From the NCBI GenBank assembly GCA_022652985.1, contig JALCRY010000020.1:1-37352 (forward strand): DNA of 37,352 bases. Direction: 5' to 3'. The translations under genes were made by a program, and so were the position numbers. Position 1 is the stretch's first letter, and every line of letters starts with the position of its first letter. Shown here piece by piece: positions 4,736-24,876 of the stretch. The DNA comes from Eubacteriaceae bacterium. Its GTDB lineage: Bacteria > Bacillota > Clostridia > Peptostreptococcales > Anaerovoracaceae. The notes beneath the pieces are model-generated. The model was not told the origin of the DNA and searched no databases. It saw nothing but the letters and a program-made list of their open reading frames with translations.

Positions 4736-5829
4736 TCAATGACCTCGATGCTCACATCCGGCGAACTGCTCAGCATCAGCAGCCCCGCGTATCCGAGATC
4801 GAAACGCATCACGTCACCGACCCGGATCTCCCGCTCAGCATCCTCAATATCCAGTATCGTATGGTCGCTCGATGCACCGAGCACCTCCACGCCTTCATCC
4901 CGCGGATGCAGCTTGTCCGGATATCCGTAGTCCGCTTTTCCGACGGCCAGCAGCGCACGCTTTCTGATGCCGCGGTCGATATATTCCTCCCGGTCTCCGA
5001 AGGCCGAAAACCCGATCTCGCCGACCGGATAACTCGGCTTGTCGCGGACCTCGATCACTTCCGCCTCGAGCGTGAACACATCCATATTCATGTAAGGCAT
5101 ATCCAGTCCGTAAAGCTCCTGCCAGTCGCGGGCCAGTAATATTCCCTCGCCCATACGCAGCTGATTGATCCCGACGGGTATCGTGCCGTCGAGCACTCTC
5201 ATAAATGACGATGTTGCGCCGCCCGAAATGTAATCGAGCCTGCGCCCTATCCTTGCTTCAGCATCTTTCCCGAGATCAACGAGTTCCTGCAGTTTTTCCG
5301 CTGTCGCCATCAGCGACCCGTAGCAGCCGATATTCGTCCCGATCCCGGCAAGTTCTATTCCCGGAAGCGATTCGGCATATTCCGCCGCATCGCACAGTTC
5401 GTCCGAACCCCAGAAGCCCTCGCGCAGATCGCCGATATCCGCCATCAGAATGACCTGATGCGTCTTCCCCGCAGCCTCCGCTTCCTCGGAAAGAGCCTTC
5501 ATTACCGCCTTATCACTGTTCAGACTCACATCCGCATAAGCGATGACATCAGCGGCTTCAGACAGCATCGGCACCCTTATCAGCATCAGCGGGATTTTCA
5601 CGCCGGCCTCTCTGGCCGCGGCCAGCTGCGAGATCCGCGAACTGGCGATCCACTTGCAGCCCGCCTGCTCAAACGCCAGCGACACCTCCGGTATCCCGTT
5701 ACAGCCTTTCACGACGCCGGCAACTTCTATTCCCGCGTCTCCGCACCGCGAGATCACCTCGCGCAGATTCGTGCGCAGCTTCTGTATATCGACTGTAAGT
5801 TTCGGTAAATGCCCTGCGGAATCGTACAT
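4732..5829 (-). CDS. Alanine/ornithine racemase-family PLP enzyme
   Basis: A 365-aa protein of the fold III (alanine racemase N-terminal domain) type, most like the ornithine racemase (Orr) group. The PLP lysine lies in VAGVVKGCNG (about residue 41). Also visible are family stretches LMADIGDLREGFW, ISGGATSSF, NQLRMGEGILLARD, GIRKRALLAVGKADYG and VLGASSDHTILDIED, all of which have counterparts in clostridial ornithine racemase. Substrate cannot be set from sequence: ornithine, alanine or another amino acid are possible. The ATG overlaps the stop of the upstream acyl-CoA synthetase (TAATG), so translation is coupled. There is no signal peptide. Its partnership with two fatty-acyl-CoA synthetases is unusual. 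Confidence 0.88.
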   Translation of the reverse strand: MYDSAGHLPKLTVDIQKLRTNLREVISRCGDAGIEVAGVVKGCNGIPEVSLAFEQAGCKWIASSRISQLAAAREAGVKIPLMLIRVPMLSEAADVIAYADVSLNSDKAVMKALSEEAEAAGKTHQVILMADIGDLREGFWGSDELCDAAEYAESLPGIELAGIGTNIGCYGSLMATAEKLQELVDLGKDAEARIGRRLDYISGGATSSFMRVLDGTIPVGINQLRMGEGILLARDWQELYGLDMPYMNMDVFTLEAEVIEVRDKPSYPVGEIGFSAFGDREEYIDRGIRKRALLAVGKADYGYPDKLHPRDEGVEVLGASSDHTILDIEDAEREIRVGDVMRFDLGYAGLLMLSSSPDVSIEVID

Positions 5830-7652
5830 TACTCGTGTCTCCTGTTTTCCTCGGAAAATCTTCTGATCTTCTGAGATGTATTCTTGTCGAAATCTGTATC
5901 TCTGATATACAGTCTCTTGATTTTCTTAAAGAACGGGACCTTCTGATTTATAGCATCTATTTCTTCCCAAAGATCCTGGTAAATTTCGCTCTTCGAAGGC
6001 TCGCGCCCCTCGTATTTTTCCGCGACCTCTTCATCGTCGAGTCTCACTGAAGCGACCACGAGGATGTCATCCTTATCTTCATTTTCCTCCGAAAATACCA
6101 TTGACTCTTTCACGACCGGAATGTTGTTGATGTAATATTCGAGCTCTTCCGGGAATACATTCTTGCCGTTTTTGGTGATGATGACGTTCTTTTTTCTGCC
6201 CGTTATATAAATGTAGCCTTCGTCGTCGATGTAGCCGATGTCTCCGGAGTGGAACCATCCGTCAGTAATAGCCTCCGCAGTCGCTTCCGGATCTTTGTAA
6301 TATCCGATCATGACGTTGTCGCCCTTGAGCCACAGCTCGCCGTTCCCGTCTTCATCAGGGTCGTTGACCTTGACCTGGAAACCAGGGAAACCTCTGCCGC
6401 ACGATGTCGACTTCGGTCGGATGTCCGGGTTGAGCGCGCCCATCGGAGCGCATTCCGTGAGTCCATATCCCTGGAGAGCATTTATGCCTATCGCCCGGAA
6501 GAAATCAAGTACATCAGGATTTATCGCGGCGCCGCCGACTATCAGCAGCCTCATTCTGCTGCCGAATATCGACAGGATATCTTTGAACAGTTTCTTGCTG
6601 AGATCTATGTGGAGCTTCTTCATCTTCGCATTCATGGCGAGGCCCTTCCTCAGCTTGTCGGCCTTGCCTTCCTTCTCCGCAGTCTTCCAGACCCTCTTGT
6701 ATATCAGCTCGAATATCGCCGGTACTCCGAGGAGCATCGTCGGATTCGCCTCTTTGAGATTCTTCAGTATGTACTTCAGCCCTTCACAGTAAGCGATCGC
6801 CGCGCCCTTGTACATCGGCATCAGGAAGCCGCTCGTGCACTCGTATGTGTGATGCAGCGGCAGCACCGAGAAGAAAATATCCCAGTCGTTTACCTTGAGC
6901 ACCGTCGGACTGGCCATAAGATCGGCGGCCAGATTCTTGTGCGAGATCATTACTCCCTTCGAAGCGCCCGTTGTCCCCGAGGTGTAAATCAGGACCGCGA
7001 GGTCTTCATTGTTGATCTGCGCATCCAGGAAACGCCTGTCGCCTTCGTCGATGAGCTTCTGGCCTTTTTCCACCAGCTTCGGCCAGGAGAACGATCCGTC
7101 CTCATCCCTGGCTGCGTTCATATTTATTACAGTCGCGAGCTTCGTTGTGCCTTCCGCCAGGATCTCCTTGAATTCCTTCTCGTACTTCCCGGTCGTGATG
7201 ACTGCTTCTACACCCGCATCATTCATCAGCTCAACTATGTTCGCCTTGTCGAGTTCCTTGTCAAGAGGCACCGCTATGCCCGTTCCGCAGACCACTGCAA
7301 AATACGACATTGCCCATCTGGAACAGTTCTCGCCGATGATCGAAATCCTCTTGTCTTTCAGGCCCATATCTATGAGTGCCGTACCGAGGGCATTGACCCT
7401 CCTCAGCATTTCCCTGTACAGGATCGATCTGTAAGGTCCGCCCTTCGTGTCCTTCTCCCAGAACGCGACGTGATCACCGTACCACTCGTCGCTCGCCGAA
7501 CTTTCGATCATATCCTTCAGATCAGTAATAGGACGGCTGTCCCTGTACATGATCAGAGGGTCCGTGCTGGCCTCGATGTTCTCCGCAACGAAATTCTCAG
7601 CATATTGTTTTTCTTTTTCCTTCAGTGCTTTGTATTCTTCTGTACTCAGCAT
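5829..7652 (-). CDS. Long-chain fatty acyl-CoA synthetase, paralog 1 (AMP-forming)
   Basis: A 607-aa ANL-superfamily adenylating enzyme. The P-loop motif is YTSGTTGASKGVMISHKN (about 221-238). Later core motifs are LQGYGLTECAP, GELWLKGDNVMIGYYKDPEAT and the hinge YITGRKKNVIITKNGKNV (about 485-502), with the C-terminal catalytic Lys region DKNTSQKIRRF at the end. The N-terminal segment and linker match bacterial long-chain fatty acid-CoA ligases (FadD15-like). It activates fatty acids with ATP and CoA at the cytoplasmic face of the membrane. The ATG at 7652 follows AAGGAGACCAA and lies inside the last codons of the upstream paralog, a 7-nt overlap. It is likely co-transcribed with its paralog and the racemase-like gene. 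Confidence 0.92.
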   Translation of the reverse strand: MLSTEEYKALKEKEKQYAENFVAENIEASTDPLIMYRDSRPITDLKDMIESSASDEWYGDHVAFWEKDTKGGPYRSILYREMLRRVNALGTALIDMGLKDKRISIIGENCSRWAMSYFAVVCGTGIAVPLDKELDKANIVELMNDAGVEAVITTGKYEKEFKEILAEGTTKLATVINMNAARDEDGSFSWPKLVEKGQKLIDEGDRRFLDAQINNEDLAVLIYTSGTTGASKGVMISHKNLAADLMASPTVLKVNDWDIFFSVLPLHHTYECTSGFLMPMYKGAAIAYCEGLKYILKNLKEANPTMLLGVPAIFELIYKRVWKTAEKEGKADKLRKGLAMNAKMKKLHIDLSKKLFKDILSIFGSRMRLLIVGGAAINPDVLDFFRAIGINALQGYGLTECAPMGALNPDIRPKSTSCGRGFPGFQVKVNDPDEDGNGELWLKGDNVMIGYYKDPEATAEAITDGWFHSGDIGYIDDEGYIYITGRKKNVIITKNGKNVFPEELEYYINNIPVVKESMVFSEENEDKDDILVVASVRLDDEEVAEKYEGREPSKSEIYQDLWEEIDAINQKVPFFKKIKRLYIRDTDFDKNTSQKIRRFSEENRRHE

Positions 7653-9433
7653 TTGGTCTCCTTTCCGTCATCCGAATTCAGATTTTCCTCATTATATCTC
7701 TTGATTTTTCTCGTAGTCGTCTTGTCAAATTCCTCGTGACGGATACTGAACCGCCTCACGCGCTTGTACAGCGGCATGAGATCGTTCACCCTCTCTATCT
7801 CGTCCTTCAGGAATGCCCTCAGCTCATCATCGTCGAGATGCTTCCCCGTCTGCTCGACAATATTATCAAAGTTCGGCAGGATCTCCGCCTTGACGACGCT
7901 GTCGCCCTTGTCGTCAGACTGCGCATGCACGAGTGCCTCCTCGATAAAGTCCGAAAGCGTCAGGTAATATTCGATTTCCTCCGGGAATACATTCTTCCCG
8001 TTCTTCGTTATTATTACTGACTTTTTTCTCCCCGTGATGTATACAAACCCGTCGTCGTCGATATATCCGATGTCCCCGGTATGCAGCCAGCCGTCCGCGT
8101 CGACCGCAGCCTCCGTGGCTTTTTCATTCTCGTAATATCCGATCATTACCGACGGTCCCCGGCAGATGATCTCGCCGAAGCCTTCCTCATCGACATCCAC
8201 CGTGTCGAGCTCTGTCCCCGGCAGCGCGAATCCCGCCGAGTCGGCCTTGCTGTAATAGTCGCGGTTGACCGCCAGTATCGGCGAATTCTCAGTCATGCCG
8301 TACCCCTGTATCATAGGGAGTCCCATCGCTTCGAAGTCCTCGATGACGCGGGCATTTATCGACGCTCCGCCGGCAATGAACAGCGCCATATGGCCGCCTG
8401 TCGCCTCATGCACGTCTTTGAACATCCTGCGGCATATCGCCGGATTGTTGTAAAGCTTGAATTTTTTCGAAAGCGCGATGCCCTTTCTGAGCTTGTCGAG
8501 CTTCCCGTCAGCCTCAGCCTTCTTGAACATTTTTTTATGTATAGTCTCAAATATCAGAGGCACCGACAACATAACTGTTGCATGCGACTCCTGCATATTT
8601 TTCATTATATATTTCAGCCCTTCGCATATCGCTATAGCCATGCCCTGATAAAGTCCCGTCATGATATGGCAGGTCATTTCATATGTATGGTGCATCGGCA
8701 GGACCGAAAGTCCGATCCCCGGCTGCCTGATCTTAACGTATTTGCTCATATTGACCACGTTGGCGGCAATATTCCTGTGCGAAAGCATTACGCCCTTCGC
8801 CATTCCCGTCGTGCCGGAAGTGAACAGCAGTGAACACATCGCTTCTGGATCTATCTCCGCTTTGAGATAGTCCGTATATCCGCTGTAGATATCTTCTTTC
8901 CCGCTCTCTATGAGTCCCTGCCAGGAAAGGCGCGGTATCGTGTCGCCTTCTTCCGGCTCATCGGCATCCTCGTCTTCTCCCAGCGCCATGTCCGCGATGA
9001 ATTCGATCCCGCTCAGTCTCGGAGCGATCTCATTTACCAGTTTTCTGAGCTTGCCGCTGTGCACGATCGCGGAAACGCCTGCACGTTCAAGGAGATTCAC
9101 GACCTCATCCTGATGGAGTTCACGGTCGATCGGCACGATGACGCCGGCGCCGTTGACCACAGCGAAATAAGTCACGACCCATTCGTAACTGTTCTCGCCT
9201 ATTACGGCAATTTTCTTGCCTTTCATCCCTCTGCGGACAAAACTCGTTCCGAGCGCATTGATGTCCACGCGGAACTGTCCGAAAGAAATAGGTTTATATT
9301 CCCCGCCGGGTTTGTCCTTCACTAAAAAAGCAGGATCATCTCCAAAGAGGTCCGCGCATGAATCGATCATTTCACGAAGATCCCTGATGTCTCTAGTTTC
9401 ATACAGCTGATCTTTATACTTTTTGCTGTTCAT
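7646..9433 (-). CDS. Long-chain fatty acyl-CoA synthetase, paralog 2 (AMP-forming)
   Basis: A 595-aa paralog of the downstream gene with the same order of motifs: FTSGTTGMAKGVMLSHRN, IQGYGMTENSPIL, GEIICRGPSVMIGYYENE, YITGRKKSVIITKNGKNV and the C-terminal DKTTTRKIKRY. The start is set at ATG 9433 (MNSKKYKDQ), 6 nt after GGGAG; an upstream in-frame TTG at 9445 lies over this ribosome site and is unlikely. Between the third and fourth core regions it contains an acidic stretch (GEDEDADEPEEGD, about residues 150-165) that paralog 1 lacks. It is first gene of the operon and is divergent from mnmA. The pair may differ in chain-length preference, or one may serve phospholipid repair; neither can be read from sequence. 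Confidence 0.92.
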   Translation of the reverse strand: MNSKKYKDQLYETRDIRDLREMIDSCADLFGDDPAFLVKDKPGGEYKPISFGQFRVDINALGTSFVRRGMKGKKIAVIGENSYEWVVTYFAVVNGAGVIVPIDRELHQDEVVNLLERAGVSAIVHSGKLRKLVNEIAPRLSGIEFIADMALGEDEDADEPEEGDTIPRLSWQGLIESGKEDIYSGYTDYLKAEIDPEAMCSLLFTSGTTGMAKGVMLSHRNIAANVVNMSKYVKIRQPGIGLSVLPMHHTYEMTCHIMTGLYQGMAIAICEGLKYIMKNMQESHATVMLSVPLIFETIHKKMFKKAEADGKLDKLRKGIALSKKFKLYNNPAICRRMFKDVHEATGGHMALFIAGGASINARVIEDFEAMGLPMIQGYGMTENSPILAVNRDYYSKADSAGFALPGTELDTVDVDEEGFGEIICRGPSVMIGYYENEKATEAAVDADGWLHTGDIGYIDDDGFVYITGRKKSVIITKNGKNVFPEEIEYYLTLSDFIEEALVHAQSDDKGDSVVKAEILPNFDNIVEQTGKHLDDDELRAFLKDEIERVNDLMPLYKRVRRFSIRHEEFDKTTTRKIKRYNEENLNSDDGKETKC

Positions 9434-9476
9434 AATATCTCCCAACTGCTCTTTTTCCTAAAATATAGCGGTATAT

Positions 9477-17694: not shown

Positions 17695-19173
17695 CTATAT
17701 GAAATCACGGAATATGTCCGAAACTTTTTCTATTTTATTCGCTTTCCAGCAGTTGCGTCCGCAAAGTATCAGTCCGTTGTCCATATCCCCGCGCGCCGTC
17801 CTGAGTGCGGCCTCCGTTACCGACAGCGGCGTTCCGCCGTTTTCCAGCGATCTCACATAGTCGTTCCTGATTGCCCAGCACGGTTTTTCGCCCGGCACGG
17901 CTACCAGCGCAATATCAGATTCTCCGGCAGCGATGTACGCCTGCTTGAAAGCCTCATCGGCATCACATTCCTCGGTAGTGACGAACCGCGTCCCTATCTG
18001 GATGCCGTCGGCCCCGTACGCGAAAGCCTTTTTCGCATCGTCTCTTGTGTAGATGCCTCCGCCCACTATCAGCGGGCAGTTCCCGAGCTGCGATATCTCT
18101 TCTTTGACTTCAACGAGATTGGCATAAAAATCCTCACGCGCCCGGTCGATTTTCTCCGTCTTGTATCCCAGAGTCCCTCCGGCATAAGGCCCCTCGAAAA
18201 TAAAGGCATCCGGCGTGCGTCCGTGTTTTTTCTGCCAGTTCTTGATGATTACTCTCGCGCCTCTCGGAGATGAAATGATCGGTATCAGCGCAATGTGCCG
18301 GTCGCCCACGATCCCCGGCAGCGATGTCGGTATCCCCGCACCGCTGATGATGATCCTTGCTCCGGCCTCGATCGCGGCTTCGACATATTCGCTGTAATGA
18401 TCCATCGTGTAAGGTATATTCACGGCAACAGGTCCCGGCGTTCCGACGGCGGATATCCGCAGCGCTTTCTGCACCTCGGCTTTCAGCGCCCTGAGGTTCG
18501 ACCTCACCGGACGCTTCGCATATTCGGGATCCCCGTAACCGCATTCCGTGGCGGCAACGCATCCCACGCCGCCTTCTCTTGCCACTTCTCCGGCGAGTCC
18601 GCCCAGCGACACTCCGACACCCATTCCGCCCTGGAATATCGGAACGGGAATGACTATATCCCTGATCCTCAGCGGCGCCAGTTTGTAATCGTTCACATCG
18701 CGGACCGGCGGTATCCTCTGCATGGAAACAAATTCATTTATGCTTTCCAGCGAGCGCACGAATGTGTCTATCTCTTCCGGCGACAGCATGGATACGGCCT
18801 CATTGATCAGCTTCGCATGATATTCCTCATGCTCGGCAACGGCCGCGCGCCCTGCCTGCGTCAGCCTGACTTTAACGATGCGTTTGTCCTCCGGCGTGCG
18901 GAATCTCTCGACATATCCCTTTTTAACCAGGTGACTGACCGCTGTGGTCAGGGTACTTACGGATATTTTGAGAATGGCCGCGACCTGACTCATCGTCTTC
19001 GACCGCTCGGCGCTTCCGACCGCCATATGCTCTCCGCCTATCGCGGCCAGCGTGTGCATTTCCGTCATCGACAGATTATGTTTTCCGGATCCGTTCAGAG
19101 CCTTTTCCTCCATCTTGAGGACGACATTGAATAAATTCACCAATATCTCATCGATGCGTTCTACTTGATTCAT
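17695..19173 (-). CDS. MarR/FabT-like regulator fused to a FabK/nitronate-monooxygenase-like domain
   Basis: One uninterrupted 492-aa frame. Residues 1-150 are a MarR-type winged helix (recognition region about 61-90, MSQVAAILKISVSTLTTAVS; wing YVERFRTPEDKRIVKVRLT). Residues about 165-492 are a flavin-binding TIM barrel of the nitronate monooxygenase/FabK family: PIFQGGMGVGVSLGGLAGEVA, ISGAGIPTSLP, PLIVGGGIYTRDDA and GADGIQIGTRFVTTEEC. Where active members carry AGGH, this one has AGGT (Thr334), so the catalytic His is absent while the FMN-phosphate-binding glycines remain. It is the last gene of the fab operon, and its ribosome site directly follows the fabZ stop. I infer a repressor of the operon whose barrel senses FMN redox state, an acyl group or a related ligand. 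The clustering of a FabT-type box and this gene supports this, but no activity is shown. Confidence 0.85.
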   Translation of the reverse strand: MNQVERIDEILVNLFNVVLKMEEKALNGSGKHNLSMTEMHTLAAIGGEHMAVGSAERSKTMSQVAAILKISVSTLTTAVSHLVKKGYVERFRTPEDKRIVKVRLTQAGRAAVAEHEEYHAKLINEAVSMLSPEEIDTFVRSLESINEFVSMQRIPPVRDVNDYKLAPLRIRDIVIPVPIFQGGMGVGVSLGGLAGEVAREGGVGCVAATECGYGDPEYAKRPVRSNLRALKAEVQKALRISAVGTPGPVAVNIPYTMDHYSEYVEAAIEAGARIIISGAGIPTSLPGIVGDRHIALIPIISSPRGARVIIKNWQKKHGRTPDAFIFEGPYAGGTLGYKTEKIDRAREDFYANLVEVKEEISQLGNCPLIVGGGIYTRDDAKKAFAYGADGIQIGTRFVTTEECDADEAFKQAYIAAGESDIALVAVPGEKPCWAIRNDYVRSLENGGTPLSVTEAALRTARGDMDNGLILCGRNCWKANKIEKVSDIFRDFI

Positions 19174-19185
19174 ACTTTGTTCTCC

Positions 19186-19614
19186 TTATGCGTCGAACAT
19201 AAACGAGATCTCGCACTCGCACGCGAGCTGATCTCCCACATATGCCCTGCCGACGCCCTTTCCGGCGCGCGATCTGAGATGTACGAGTTCTACTTCCAGT
19301 CTGAGATCGTCGCCCGGAACGACTTTATGCCTGAACTTGGCATTCCTGATACCGGAGAAGAAAGCGATCTTCCCCTTGTTTTCCGGCAGCGAAAGCGCCG
19401 CGACAGCACCTGCCTGGGCGATGGTCTCCACTATCAGGACCCCCGGCATTACCGGTTCCTGCGGAAAATGCCCTTTGAAGTAATATTCGTCTGCACTCAC
19501 ATGTTTGATCGCCGTCACGGTTTTCCCCGGCTCCATCTCGACTATCTCGTCGATGAGCAGAAACGGGTCTCTGTGCGGTAATATTTCTTTTATCTGTTCT
19601 TTGTCCATCAGCAT
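19186..19614 (-). CDS. fabZ: 3-hydroxyacyl-ACP dehydratase FabZ
   Basis: A 142-aa hot-dog fold enzyme that dehydrates (3R)-hydroxyacyl-ACP in each elongation cycle. The catalytic His lies in LPHRDPFLLID (about 10-20) and the second acidic residue in GHFPQEPVMPGVLIVE (about 46-61). The start is set at ATG 19614, 9 nt after AGGAG; a longer frame from TTG 19650 would cover that ribosome site. It lies between the Lys/Ala repeat protein and the MarR fusion, in the same direction. As no FabA or FabM is visible, the source of unsaturated fatty acids is not evident here. Confidence 0.96.
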   Translation of the reverse strand: MLMDKEQIKEILPHRDPFLLIDEIVEMEPGKTVTAIKHVSADEYYFKGHFPQEPVMPGVLIVETIAQAGAVAALSLPENKGKIAFFSGIRNAKFRHKVVPGDDLRLEVELVHLRSRAGKGVGRAYVGDQLACECEISFMFDA

Positions 19615-19691
19615 GGTATTTCTCCTGTCATGAAACTGTTCTGTGTTCAAAAAAGGGCCGCACGTTCCTGCGGCCCTTCCGTGATTTTCTT

Positions 19692-20699
19692 TTATTTCTC
19701 TTTCTTTCCGCCCAGGAAAAGCAGCGCAAGAGGAGTTGTTATAAGCGCCAGTGCGGCAAGTCCGTGCTTCTTCTTTTTCTTTTTATCCTCACCGAGACTT
19801 GTTACGGTCTCATGTGTCGAAGTAGTCTCTGACATTGCTTTTTTGGCATCCTTCTTGTCGTATTTTGCTTTCTTGCGGTCCTTCTTCGCGGCTTTGGCGG
19901 CCTTAGCAGCCTTCTTAGCCTCTTTGCGGCTCACCTTTTCTGCCTTCTTCTTGGCCTTGTAATCAGCCTCCGCTGCGGCAAATGCCTCTGCGGAATAAAG
20001 GATATCCGGATCAGGTCTGTCCTCGGAAAGATCAGGCATATATGCCTCGTTCTCCTCGGCCATCTCTTCTTCTATCTCCGCTTCCTTCTTCAGGGATCTG
20101 GCCCTGGCTGCGGCTTCCTGCGCCTTCAGCGCCGCCAGCTCGCTTATCTCCTGAGCTCTGCCCGCGGCGATCCTCGCTCTTTCAGAAGCGGCATCCCCGG
20201 CAGTCTTCGCAAATTCCCTGGCGTCATCCGCAAAATCTCTCGCATCGCTGAGATAGGCTTCCTTGTTCTTTTTAGCCTGCTCGATGTACGGCTTCGCGGC
20301 TTTCTTCGCCTTCTTCACGTACGGCTTCGCCGCCTTTTTAGCCTCGCTGTGCTTCTTGTCCGCGAGCTTCTTCGCGTCATCAGCCAGTTCTCTGGCGTCC
20401 TTTACCAGCGGTTTAGCTTCTTTTTTGGCCTTCTTTACATATGGCTTTGCTGTCTTCTTCAGCTGATCCACATAAGGACCTGCCGCCGCAGCGGCATCGC
20501 TGAACTTCGCACTCGCATAGTCCTTTGCGTCGTAAGCAAAATCCACAGCGCCGTCTTTAATATCGGCAGCTTTATTCGCAGCTTCTGATATCCTGGAGTT
20601 GCGCATTGCTTTCAGGCGCTTCGCCTCAAAGTCATCATTAACCGCCGTCAATGTGCGGTTTGCCCATCCTGTTACATTTCTGTTGTTCCAATTGCTCAT
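19692..20699 (-). CDS. Lys/Ala-rich hendecad-repeat protein with C-terminal hydrophobic tail
   Basis: A 335-aa protein of unknown function in the middle of the fab operon. Residues 74-117 and 124-200 are built of 11-residue units, for example KPYVKKAKKEA, KPLVKDARELA, AKPYVKKAKKA, AKPYIEQAKKN and ADDAREFAKTA, with one 6-residue break at 118-123. An acidic segment (208-230), a very basic Lys/Ala segment (245-290) and a single hydrophobic stretch (313-331, flanked by Lys runs) follow. Eleven-residue amphipathic repeats are known in proteins that coat lipid surfaces (synucleins, perilipins, LEA proteins); a histone H1-like DNA-binding role is another reading of the Lys/Ala segment. The ribosome site GGAGGAGCTTAAA is strong, and the gene lies 64 nt below fabF and about 77 nt above fabZ. 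Confidence 0.8.
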   Translation of the reverse strand: MSNWNNRNVTGWANRTLTAVNDDFEAKRLKAMRNSRISEAANKAADIKDGAVDFAYDAKDYASAKFSDAAAAAGPYVDQLKKTAKPYVKKAKKEAKPLVKDARELADDAKKLADKKHSEAKKAAKPYVKKAKKAAKPYIEQAKKNKEAYLSDARDFADDAREFAKTAGDAASERARIAAGRAQEISELAALKAQEAAARARSLKKEAEIEEEMAEENEAYMPDLSEDRPDPDILYSAEAFAAAEADYKAKKKAEKVSRKEAKKAAKAAKAAKKDRKKAKYDKKDAKKAMSETTSTHETVTSLGEDKKKKKKHGLAALALITTPLALLFLGGKKEK

Positions 20700-20763: not shown

Positions 20764-21993
20764 TTACTCCGCGAACTTCTTAATTACAATACTGCCGTTA
20801 TGTCCGCCGAATCCGAATGAGTTCGACATCACGCATTTCAGTTCCTGACTGCGTCCCTCGTTCGGTACATAGTCCAGGTCGCACTTCGGGTCAGGCACTC
20901 TGAGATTTATCGTCGGCGGAATGAATCCGTCGTTGATAGCCTGCACGCAGAATATGCCTTCAATGGCTCCCGCTGCGCCGAGAAGATGTCCTGTCATGCT
21001 CTTAGTCGAGCTTACAGGCACCTTTGTATCCTCGCCGAAGACCATCTTGATCGCCTTTGTTTCGAACTCGTCGTTGTACGGCGTGCCCGTCCCGTGCGCA
21101 TTGATATAATCTATATCCTCTGAAGATATCCCTGCTTCGTCGAGCGCCAGCTGCATGCAGTTCGCCGCGCCGCTCCCGTCAGGTTCCGGCATGGTCACAT
21201 GATATGCGTCACAGGTCGATCCGTATCCGACTAATTCTGCGTAGATGTGCGCGCCTCTTTCCAGAGCATGCTCCAGTTCTTCCAGAACGATGAATCCTGC
21301 GCCCTCGCCCATGATGAAGCCGTCTCTTTCCGCATCGAACGGCGTTGAGCATCTGTCTTTGTCAGTACTGGTCGACGTGGCCTTCATCGTACCGAATCCC
21401 GCAAAGCAGGCAGGTGCGAAAGCAGCTTCCGCGCCGCCGGCAATGATGACGTCGCTGTATCCGTCCTTGATATTTCTGAATGCTTCGCCTATCGCCTGTG
21501 TTCCGGCTGCACATGCAGTAACAACTCCGATGCACGGTCCCTTGGCGGCAAATTCTATCGCGATGTTGCCGGCTATGAGATTCGAGATCGTCATAGGTAT
21601 CATCAGAGCCGATACATGCTTGCAGTCCTGCCTGCTCTCCGCTTTTCTGATCTGCCCTTCAAGAGTCTGGATGCCGCCGATGCCCGATCCGCCGTAAACT
21701 CCGAATCTCATCGGTTCAACATTTTCTCCGCTTACGATACCGCTGTCGGCAACAGCTTCATGTGCGGCAGCGATCGCGAACTGCGAAGTAGGGTCCAGTC
21801 TCTTCGCCGCTCTCTTGTCCGGGAACTCGAAGTCTTTGACTTCTCCGCCCATGACACATTTCTGATCCTCCAGGTCAAAATGCGTGATCCTGTCGATCCC
21901 GTTGACGCCCTTCTTGATGTTCTCCCATGATTCTCCCGCTGTGTTTCCGACCGGAGTGACCGCACCCATACCGGTAATAACTACTCTCTTCAT
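20764..21993 (-). CDS. fabF: 3-oxoacyl-ACP synthase II FabF
   Basis: A 409-aa condensing enzyme that elongates acyl-ACP with malonyl-ACP. The nucleophilic Cys is in VTACAAGTQAIGEAF (about 160-174), and the two catalytic His are in NAHGTGTPYNDE (about 299-310) and STKSMTGHLLGAAG (about 330-343). The N-terminus MKRVVITGMGAVTPVGN and C-terminus MSNSFGFGGHNGSIVIKKF are standard, and length is normal. The start follows GAGGAG. It is fourth in the fab operon. No fabH is present in the window, so initiation must be encoded elsewhere or use another enzyme. Confidence 0.97.
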   Translation of the reverse strand: MKRVVITGMGAVTPVGNTAGESWENIKKGVNGIDRITHFDLEDQKCVMGGEVKDFEFPDKRAAKRLDPTSQFAIAAAHEAVADSGIVSGENVEPMRFGVYGGSGIGGIQTLEGQIRKAESRQDCKHVSALMIPMTISNLIAGNIAIEFAAKGPCIGVVTACAAGTQAIGEAFRNIKDGYSDVIIAGGAEAAFAPACFAGFGTMKATSTSTDKDRCSTPFDAERDGFIMGEGAGFIVLEELEHALERGAHIYAELVGYGSTCDAYHVTMPEPDGSGAANCMQLALDEAGISSEDIDYINAHGTGTPYNDEFETKAIKMVFGEDTKVPVSSTKSMTGHLLGAAGAIEGIFCVQAINDGFIPPTINLRVPDPKCDLDYVPNEGRSQELKCVMSNSFGFGGHNGSIVIKKFAE

Positions 21994-22054: not shown

Positions 22055-22795
22055 TCAGCAGATGAGCCCGCCGTCGACAGCTATGACCTGACCTGTCACG
22101 TACGAAGCAAGATCACTCGCCAGGAACAGCGCCGCTCCCGCCACGTCATCCGGCGTTCCCATGCGTCCGAGCCCGATGCTCTCCGCCGCCTTCGCCTTCT
22201 GGTCGTCTGTCAGCACCGCCGTCATATCCGTTGCGATAAATCCCGGAGCAATGGCATTTACAGTAATGCCTCTTCTGCCCAGTTCTTTCGCTGCGCTGAG
22301 CGTCATGCCTATCACGCCGGCTTTCGACGCGCTGTAATTCACCTGCGCAGGATTGCCTTTCACGCCTGCTATCGACGACATATTGATTATGCGTCCGCTG
22401 CGCTGCTTCATCATGACCTTTGCCGCAGCCTTCATGAAGCTGAAACTCCCGACGAGATTTATGTCTATTACTCTGGCAAAATCCTCGGTGCTCATGCGCG
22501 CCAGCAGCTTGTCATCCGTGATCCCCGCATTGTTGACCAGTATGTCCACCGAACCGAACTCTTCCCTGGCCTTCGCCACAGCACCTTCCGCCGTCTGCGG
22601 ATCCGCGACGTCTCCCTTGAACAGCAGTACTTTGGTACCGTACCGGCCCAGCTCCTCCGCGGCTCTTTCAGCCTGCTCGTCATTACTTCTATATACAATG
22701 AGCACATTCGCTCCGTTCTCGCAGAACTTCCCGGCAATGCTCCTGCCTATTCCTCTGTCTCCGCCGGTTATAACCGCGGATTTTCCTTTTAACAT
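22055..22795 (-). CDS. fabG: 3-oxoacyl-ACP reductase FabG
   Basis: A 246-aa short-chain dehydrogenase/reductase. The NADP-binding motif is TGGDRGIGRSIA (about 10-21), NNAG occurs at about 86-89, and the catalytic Ser-Tyr-Lys set is in NMSSIAG and YSASKAG (about 138-158). The C-terminus ASYVTGQVIAVDGGLIC is typical. It reduces 3-oxoacyl-ACP in the elongation cycle. The usual NAAG- or NRAGIT-type motif appears as NNAGITDDKLLARM, characteristic of FabG rather than a generic dehydrogenase. The start follows AAGGAG, 23 nt after the fabD stop. Confidence 0.96.
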   Translation of the reverse strand: MLKGKSAVITGGDRGIGRSIAGKFCENGANVLIVYRSNDEQAERAAEELGRYGTKVLLFKGDVADPQTAEGAVAKAREEFGSVDILVNNAGITDDKLLARMSTEDFARVIDINLVGSFSFMKAAAKVMMKQRSGRIINMSSIAGVKGNPAQVNYSASKAGVIGMTLSAAKELGRRGITVNAIAPGFIATDMTAVLTDDQKAKAAESIGLGRMGTPDDVAGAALFLASDLASYVTGQVIAVDGGLIC

Positions 22796-22818: not shown

Positions 22819-23820
22819 CTAGCAGCCGAGCATTTCACACAGCGAATCGATCGTCTGCTCCAGGCTCTTTCTGTCTTCGACATGCAGCGGTACTGCATCC
22901 TTCGTGATCTTTTTGATCAGCGATGAAAGCGTCTTTCCCGGACCGATCTCGATAATGACCTCCGCGCCGTCGGCTGTCATGTTTTCAATGATCTCCTGCC
23001 AGTACACCGGACTCATCGCCTGCTTCGCCATTACTGCGGCCAGGTAATCCGCCACCGCGGCGTCGTCACCCTTGTCACCTTCAAAGCCTTCCATAATATC
23101 TTCGGCAGTAATGTCGGAGTATATTTTCCCCTCAGGCAGTTTCAGTTCCGCTTCTCTGAGGATCGGCAGCAGCTTTTCCGCGGCAGGCTTCATGAGCGCG
23201 CAGTGGAACGCCGTGCTTACCGGCAGCGGTATCGCCTTGATCTTATTCGCCCCGGCGACTTCCGCGAACGATTCGAGCGCTTCTTTTTCACCGGCCACGA
23301 CTGTCTGCGTCGGCGAGTTGAAGTTGACCGCTTCGAGCACACGCCCTCCGGCCGCCTCTTCTACCGCCGCGAGCACCGCTTCTCTTTTTCCGAGAGCCGC
23401 CGTCATGCCGCTGATATTCTCGCCCGCTTCGTTCTGTCCGGCCTTCTGCATGAACACGCCTCTGTTCTGCACGATTTTCAGGCCCTTGCCTATCTCGTCG
23501 ATCGCTCCCATGGATGTCAGCGCCGCATATTCTCCGAGGCTGAATCCCGACACGCCCACGAGTTCAAGCTTGTCCGCTATCCCGGCATTTTCCGCCGCTT
23601 CTTTGAAAGCCTCGTACGCCGCCATCGTGACGGTATATATTGTAGGCTGCGTGATCCGCGTCTGCCTCAGTTCTTCTTCGGTACCGCGGAAGCACCAGTT
23701 TTTGATTTCTTCTCCTGCATCATCAAACACCTGACGGGATGCCTCGTAATTTTCATAAAGGTCATGCCCCATACCGGGATACTGAGCTCCCTGTCCGGCA
23801 AATACAATTCCGATTTTCAT
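22819..23820 (-). CDS. fabD: Malonyl-CoA:ACP transacylase FabD
   Basis: A 333-aa acyltransferase with the N-terminal FAGQGAQYPGMG (about 7-18), nucleophilic Ser in GVSGFSLGEYAAL (about 89-101) and catalytic His in AFHCALM (about 205). It moves malonyl from CoA to ACP. It is slightly longer than E. coli FabD (309) because of an acidic insert EGFEGDKGDDAAVADY (about 247-262). The start follows AGGAGG, 32 nt after fabK. The operon carries no acpP, although acpP often lies between fabK and fabD in Firmicutes. Confidence 0.95.
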   Translation of the reverse strand: MKIGIVFAGQGAQYPGMGHDLYENYEASRQVFDDAGEEIKNWCFRGTEEELRQTRITQPTIYTVTMAAYEAFKEAAENAGIADKLELVGVSGFSLGEYAALTSMGAIDEIGKGLKIVQNRGVFMQKAGQNEAGENISGMTAALGKREAVLAAVEEAAGGRVLEAVNFNSPTQTVVAGEKEALESFAEVAGANKIKAIPLPVSTAFHCALMKPAAEKLLPILREAELKLPEGKIYSDITAEDIMEGFEGDKGDDAAVADYLAAVMAKQAMSPVYWQEIIENMTADGAEVIIEIGPGKTLSSLIKKITKDAVPLHVEDRKSLEQTIDSLCEMLGC

Positions 23821-23851: not shown

Positions 23852-24802
23852 CTATTTATTGCTTTTGAGACATATGTCCGCCCTGTCCTCGTAGATCTTC
23901 GCGCCCTCGCTGAAGAGTTCTCTGATGATCTCCGCCGCAGGCTGTTCTTTCTTCACGAGTCCTGCCACCTGGCCGCTCATGACCGAGCCGTTCTGGACGT
24001 CGCCGTCGCGCACCGCGGCAGCAAGTGTACCCGTGCACAGTTCGTTTATTTCGTCTTCCGATCCGCCCGTTGCTTCGAGCTTCAGTACTTTTCTCGTCAG
24101 TTTGTTCCTGAGACATCTGACCGGATGTCCGGTGCTGCGGCCCGTAGCTGTCGTCGAGGTATCCTTCGCTGCCAGTATGGCATCCTTGTAAGCCTGTGCC
24201 ACACCGCATTCATATGCCGACAGAAATCTTGTCCCGACCTGCACGCCTTTTGCTCCGAGCATGAACGCTGCGGCAACACCGCGTCCGTCCGCAACTCCGC
24301 CCGCGCACAGCACAGGGATACTTACTGCATCCACAACCTGCGGCGTCAGCGCCATCGTCGTGATCTCGCCGATATGTCCGCCCGCTTCAGTGCCTTCCGC
24401 CACAACGGCGTCAGCGCCTTCGCGCTCCATCCTTACTGCCAGCGCGACCGATGCGACCACCGGGATCACTTTGACTCCCGCCTCTTTGAGACGCGCCATA
24501 TATTTTCCCGGATTGCCGGCGCCCGTTGTCACTACATGGACTTTTTCCTCGCAGACCACGTCCACGAGTTCGTCGATGTTCGGCGCAAGCAGCATGAGAT
24601 TGACCCCGAACGGTTTCTGTGTGAGCGAACGCGCCTTCGCGATCTGCCCTCTCAGCCACTCGGCCGTCTCCCCGCCCGAAGCGATTATTCCGAGGCCGCC
24701 GCCTTCACTGACTGCAGCCGCAAGCTGCGCATCTGCTATACGGGCCATAGCGCCCTGGATTATAGGGTATTCAGTTCCCAAAACTTCACATACATTAAGC
24801 AT
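23852..24802 (-). CDS. fabK: Enoyl-ACP reductase II FabK (FMN-dependent)
   Basis: A 316-aa flavoprotein that performs the last reduction of each fatty-acid elongation cycle in bacteria lacking FabI. Family stretches are YPIIQGAMARIADAQLAAAVS, SGGETAEW, GVNLML, VVTTGAGNPGKY, the catalytic AEGTEAGGHIGE with His143, VLCAGGVADGRGVAAAFMLGA and GVQVGTRFLSAYEC. It is the first gene after the operon promoter and FabT-type operator. Its barrel is related to the C-terminal half of the fusion protein encoded at the other end of the operon, which lacks the equivalent His. The start follows AAGGGGAAAG. Confidence 0.95.
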   Translation of the reverse strand: MLNVCEVLGTEYPIIQGAMARIADAQLAAAVSEGGGLGIIASGGETAEWLRGQIAKARSLTQKPFGVNLMLLAPNIDELVDVVCEEKVHVVTTGAGNPGKYMARLKEAGVKVIPVVASVALAVRMEREGADAVVAEGTEAGGHIGEITTMALTPQVVDAVSIPVLCAGGVADGRGVAAAFMLGAKGVQVGTRFLSAYECGVAQAYKDAILAAKDTSTTATGRSTGHPVRCLRNKLTRKVLKLEATGGSEDEINELCTGTLAAAVRDGDVQNGSVMSGQVAGLVKKEQPAAEIIRELFSEGAKIYEDRADICLKSNK

Positions 24803-24847: not shown

Positions 24848-24876
24848 ATTATACTCAATGGCCGGCCGATAGTCAA
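24848..24876 (-). promoter_or_regulatory. Consensus sigma-A promoter of the fab operon
   Basis: On the minus strand TTGACT (24871-24876) and TATAAT (24848-24853) are separated by 17 nt. The FabT-type palindrome lies 7 nt downstream of the -10 box, so it covers the start region of the transcript. Confidence 0.9.

Follow-up and report, generated by a model that had tools for sequence, protein, structure and literature searches.

Regulators in which a DNA-binding domain is joined to an enzyme fold, whether as a sensor or within a bifunctional repressor-enzyme, are exemplified by MocR/GabR, PutA, NadR and BirA, all of which draw on DNA-binding and enzyme families other than those considered here. 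We know of no repressor-enzyme that joins FabT to an enzyme of fatty-acid synthesis. FabT, in its known forms, is a single-domain protein that represses fab genes more tightly in the presence of acyl-ACP; in Enterococcus faecalis oleoyl-AcpB is more effective in this respect than palmitoyl-AcpB (PMC9083066). FabX of H. pylori is a dehydrogenase/isomerase of unsaturated fatty-acid synthesis that uses FMN, a [4Fe-4S] cluster held by C300, C304, C308 and C320, and a catalytic histidine, His182 (PMC8626469). Its activity is abolished by H182F and by H182Q; when C300, C308 or C320 is changed, cluster and activity are lost and FMN is no longer bound; and K152, K159 and R164 dock ACP, with R164A abolishing acyl-ACP binding (PMC8626469). 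For Clostridia, an enzyme dedicated to making unsaturated fatty acids was still missing in 2009 (PMC2700279).

Here we describe a gene that encodes both a FabT-like and a FabX-like domain. It lies in a stretch of 37,352 nucleotides (termed here the window) that makes up positions 1 to 37,352 of contig JALCRY010000020.1 of an Eubacteriaceae bacterium, and its features are collected in Table 1. A first-pass annotation, made from the sequence alone, had described one open frame composed of a MarR domain and a barrel, and profile searches agree: Pfam places MarR at residues 58-100 (4.6e-9) and NMO at residues 174-467 (4.5e-37), and NCBIfam places FabT at residues 9-149 (3.5e-30). The structure prediction that the annotation had proposed has been run, and the model consists of two well-folded domains. 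Shared with FabT of Streptococcus pneumoniae (PDB 6jbx) and of Enterococcus faecalis are the MarR fold, the place in the fab operon, the palindromic box and the expected autoregulation. The MarR half nevertheless scores 105 bits, below the NCBIfam FabT equivalog cut-off of 200 (NF050133), yet NF050133 is its best model. It also contains an insertion of 8-9 residues near residues 47-55 (about 19009-19035), which was not seen in relatives and which holds the model's only stretch with pLDDT below 50.

Table 1. Features of the fusion gene and of its operon, in window coordinates
Feature	Position	Strand	Basis or remark
FabT::FabX fusion gene	17695..19173	(-)	492 aa + stop; last gene of fab operon; AlphaFold pLDDT 93.1, pTM 0.88
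FabT-like MarR winged-helix domain, residues 1-152	18718..19173	(-)	NF050133 3.5e-30; PDB 6jbx 9.5e-21
FabX-derived TIM barrel, residues 166-492	17698..18678	(-)	PDB sequence match 9jsy/9lt5/7e1q, E 6e-55; fold matches
Residues 304-317, equivalent of FabX alpha-7 (ACP-docking face)	18223..18264	(-)	basic at K152, K159, R164 positions
Thr334 codon, replacing FabX catalytic His182	18172..18174	(-)	alignment to FabX
Residues 440-452, [4Fe-4S] four-Cys loop absent (C300, C304, C308, C320 of FabX)	17818..17856	(-)	
fabZ, directly before fusion gene	19186..19650	(-)	NCBIfam search
Lys/Ala-rich 335-aa ORF, hydrophobic C-terminus, between fabF and fabZ	19692-20699	(-)	
fabF	20764..21993	(-)	NCBIfam search
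fabG	22055..22795	(-)	NCBIfam search
fabD	22819..23820	(-)	NCBIfam search
fabK, canonical enoyl-ACP reductase, His143	23852..24802	(-)	TIGR03151, 457.7 bits
FabT-type operator TTTGATTATCAAA	24828..24840		exact palindrome
Operon promoter TTGACT, 17 bp, TATAAT	24848..24876	(-)	read from sequence

That a sequencing or assembly artefact joined two genes, which the annotation had named as a possible refutation, has a negligible probability and is rejected: of the 350 genomes analysed from the bacterial family of the window, 44 carry the fusion, four of them as single-contig assemblies, and separate, adjacent fabT and fabX genes were seen at the fusion's operon place only in a sister lineage (G035 and G084). 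A second possible refutation, that relatives always carry the halves separately and with the histidine present, is likewise contradicted by these 44 genomes. The same fusion, which the annotation had proposed to look for elsewhere, does recur, but we reject the idea that fusion always entails loss of the histidine: about a third of the fusions keep both the histidine and the cluster loop. Two genomes (G056, G119) have fabT alone at the fusion's place; the lack of a fusion in the only congeneric genome (G033) is uninformative, because its fab operon runs off the contig and its assembly lacks fabF. Outside the family, the fusion is absent from about 385 class-level genomes, in which every strong match (E <= 1e-60) is a barrel alone. 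All 72 separate barrels that were aligned, a non-random sample in that they were gathered by similarity to the window protein, have the histidine and the four cysteines; L093, counted among them, is half of an intact fusion that a contig break divides.

The barrel had been taken for a FabK, an identity that we reject. A search of PDB sequences with the barrel finds H. pylori FabX at E 6e-55 and FabK at 4e-17, the closest relatives being four sequence forms of this one protein; the top five matches of a PDB fold search are all H. pylori FabX, with FabK behind; and the NCBIfam FabK model matches residues 174-491 only weakly (5e-27, 95 bits), far below its cut-off of 453.1. Judged by sequence and predicted fold, the barrel is of the FabX type. 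It belongs to the same NMO superfamily as FabK (enoyl-ACP reductase II), a true copy of which opens the window's operon and has the His143 that the annotation assigned to it; unlike FabK, the fusion barrel has ACP-docking positions of the FabX type, FabK being without basic residues at the K152 and R164 positions.

What the barrel shares with H. pylori FabX (PDB 7e1q, 9lt5) is, besides sequence and fold, most of the FMN site and the basic ACP-docking positions; unlike FabX, it is fused to a MarR domain and lacks the catalytic histidine, the serine partner of that histidine and the four-Cys [4Fe-4S] loop. Thr334 aligns with His182, as the annotation's claim of a replaced catalytic histidine implies. 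Besides the histidine, the whole loop, with all four cluster ligands, is missing too. The flavin site, said to be kept, is kept in the window protein at G22, G23, M24, G25, N99, E175, G180, G220, G221, Q240, T243 and G341, with changes at L101 and F339 (FabX numbering). Because H182F and H182Q abolish FabX activity and cysteine changes destroy its cluster (PMC8626469), no FabX activity is expected of the window protein. At the docking positions K152, K159 and R164 the window protein has R, K and K (R160 is Asn), and these three positions are basic in 9 of 9 fusions of the window's clade, in 6 of 6 of a second clade (termed here clade C) and in 11 of 11 intact fusions. These basic residues could also be retained for contacts with DNA or within a dimer.

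The operon runs fabK-fabD-fabG-fabF-[Lys-rich ORF]-fabZ-fusion. Nearly every relative keeps the order fabK-D-G-F-Z-fusion, in which the fusion gene follows fabZ and is often followed by addB; the Lys/Ala-rich ORF is missing from its place in every relative examined. The palindrome to which the annotation drew attention is exact and starts 7 bp downstream of the -10 element of the fabK promoter. The same box marks the beginning of the fab operon in most relatives, genomes of the window's clade among them, where it usually precedes fabK by about 1 kb, and an extended form, AGTTTGATNNTCAAA, occurs once in the window's own genome.

With somewhat better than an even chance, we infer, the fusion is the FabT repressor of the fab operon, and its barrel, formerly a FabX, is now a pseudoenzyme that senses acyl-ACP. 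The MarR half would bind, as a dimer like FabT, to the box just downstream of the -10 element and so would block transcription of fabK-D-G-F-Z and of the fusion's own gene. The barrel, though without turnover, would still admit acyl-ACP to its tunnel (in the window's clade, over bound FMN), and acyl-ACP occupancy, probably by unsaturated or long-chain species, would allosterically set the affinity for DNA, resulting in end-product feedback on fatty-acid synthesis. In other words, with its ACP face and the entrance to its tunnel still in place but its chemistry gone, a FabX barrel would be a ready-made acyl-ACP receptor, signaling to the FabT half. By analogy, a barrel would not be needed for such sensing, since known FabT responds to acyl-ACP without one. 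A rather unlikely alternative is that the barrel is a scaffold or relic serving stability or dimerization and that the MarR half alone regulates, as in Streptococcus: FabT, to which the MarR half is homologous, works without a further domain, and the degenerate fusion gene remains in one genome (G126, locus L081; 97% complete) from which the fabK-fabZ operon is missing and in which no FabZ, fabK or FabT box was found, a persistence that also speaks against the sensor reading. Against a scaffold or relic stand the full length of the barrel, the purifying selection acting on it across many genera, and the ACP-docking positions, which stay basic while the catalytic ones go. Upstream of the fusion in G126 lie an integrase gene and a transposase gene.

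How the fusion arose and degenerated was explored by means of a maximum-likelihood tree, built without the histidine column and the cluster loop. The fused barrels and the separate, fabT-adjacent barrels of G035 and G084 form one clade (100/99), and the tree requires one fusion, one loss of the cluster loop, one rewriting of the FMN site and at least four losses of the histidine. Hence the fusion arose once, out of fabT and fabX genes that lay side by side. The His-less fusions, by contrast, do not share one origin: a tree that holds them as a single clade is rejected (p-AU 2e-42). Intact fusions number 11 in the tree set, plus four more and one that is split across two contigs. They may act as enzymes, so that something other than sensing may have favoured the fusion in the first place. 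Both the histidine and the cysteine loop are lost in nine fusions, as well as in further genomes of genus g68; the window falls within an 11-row clade (96/94) with long branches, inside which several placements are not settled. Within the window's clade the histidine and the loop have almost always been lost together, yet the link is not strict: of two mixed cases, L080 lacks the histidine and keeps the cysteines, and L082 keeps both. The annotation's notion of a repressor coupled to a dead enzyme of the same pathway as a sensor survives as regards regulation, but the enzyme is predicted to be dead in some clades only. From this perspective a path can be traced from two neighbouring genes, through a fused repressor-enzyme, to a repressor whose probable sensor is a dead enzyme.

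Intact fusions and separate barrels have 107 conserved columns in common, and on average 83% of these are kept in the window's clade. It has lost 12 of them, namely His182, Ser273, M277, G279, A281, M101 and the cluster-loop positions, and every one of the six catalytic or cluster columns is in this lost set (hypergeometric 5e-7). The barrels of degenerate fusions are under purifying selection, with dN/dS of 0.17 (L067/L069) and 0.195 (L088/L089), most other pairs being near or past synonymous saturation. Such values, well below 1, together with mostly intact FMN contacts in the window protein, would also be consistent with an enzyme of changed chemistry (an acyl-ACP isomerase or FMN reductase, for example) that needs neither histidine nor cluster, the fusion coupling the amount of enzyme to repression; three genomes (G079, G085, G137) have, moreover, no known enzyme for any unsaturated fatty acids they make. 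This explanation is unlikely, however: the residues that replace the histidine vary (T, Y, Q, L), a pattern suggestive of decay rather than of a new catalyst; the end of the tunnel is lost too, as is Ser273, by which His182 is held; and H182Q and H182F kill FabX (PMC8626469).

Clade C has degenerated independently and differently: its FMN site is rewritten (GGMG to GDMG, G220 to N/D, T243 to E/D), its four cysteines and its docking positions are kept and its histidine is variable; the columns that it has lost are enriched in FMN-site positions (7 of 18, p 0.008). These changes bear on the alternative, already raised by the annotation, that the fusion is an FMN redox sensor in which the state of the flavin, not acyl-ACP, sets DNA binding. 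Although the window protein keeps most FMN contacts, clade C shares its architecture and operon and yet has a rewritten FMN site beside retained docking positions, and redox sensing is accordingly rated as highly improbable. Going by the aligned residues, FMN sensing cannot be the function common to all fusions; it could apply to the window's clade alone. Because clade C rewrote the FMN site and all clades keep basic docking positions, a sensor of acyl-ACP fits better than one of FMN redox state. More generally, we would propose tentatively, at a little under an even chance, that a repressor captured the lipid enzyme of its own operon and became an acyl-ACP sensor by two routes after a single fusion, one clade dropping the catalytic base and the iron-sulfur loop and the other the flavin site, with the docking positions kept in both. 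If true, this would offer a natural before-and-after series, consisting of separate genes, an active fusion and two kinds of pseudoenzyme, in which to follow how a transcription factor that senses a metabolite comes into being. In clade C the operator upstream of fabK is also shifted (L084-L090): TTTTAnnnTAAAA, preceded by a conserved ATAAAATAG, takes the place of TTTGAnnnTCAAA, which suggests an altered DNA specificity.

The annotation's author knew of no described fusion of this kind, and we found no description of a FabT-FabX or FabT-FabK fusion in open-access full texts (subscription papers and preprints being outside this scope), nor any relevant paper on UfaA within the same scope. Within that searched scope, a repressor joined to an enzyme fold is of a known kind, and the pairing of FabT with FabX and the two-way loss of catalysis are undescribed.

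As regards unsaturated fatty acids, a second FabX was found in none of the degenerate-fusion genomes searched and occurs only in G192 and G195, which carry intact fusions; the window's genome is 82% complete, so that absences there are weak, including that of a DegV/FakB fatty-acid binding protein, none of which was found in it. G079, G085 and G137 each have one FabZ, without an enoyl-CoA hydratase family gene or a second FabX, and may make no unsaturated fatty acids or make them by an undescribed route. Upstream of their fab operon, Clostridium carboxidivorans, C. drakei and C. muellerianum (L033, L037 and L038, 7945-9643) have a FabX-like gene with fabT behind it and a FabT box ahead of it. 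Judging from their sequences, these intact FabX-like genes beside fabT are candidates for the missing clostridial unsaturated fatty-acid enzyme, and they bear on an old gap in our picture of this synthesis (PMC2700279).

Two further observations concern the window's own genome. A second palindromic box, ATACTTTGATAGTCAAAGTAT, occurs on contig C1 (L178, at 5696), about 60 bp before a PYC_OADA/HMGL carboxyltransferase gene (L178, 5758-7188), which is a possible second target of the regulator. In the window itself, a pair of neighbouring genes at 5829-9445 on the minus strand, adjoining greA and an alanine-racemase-like gene, encodes AMP-binding (acyl-activating) enzymes, each about 600 aa long.
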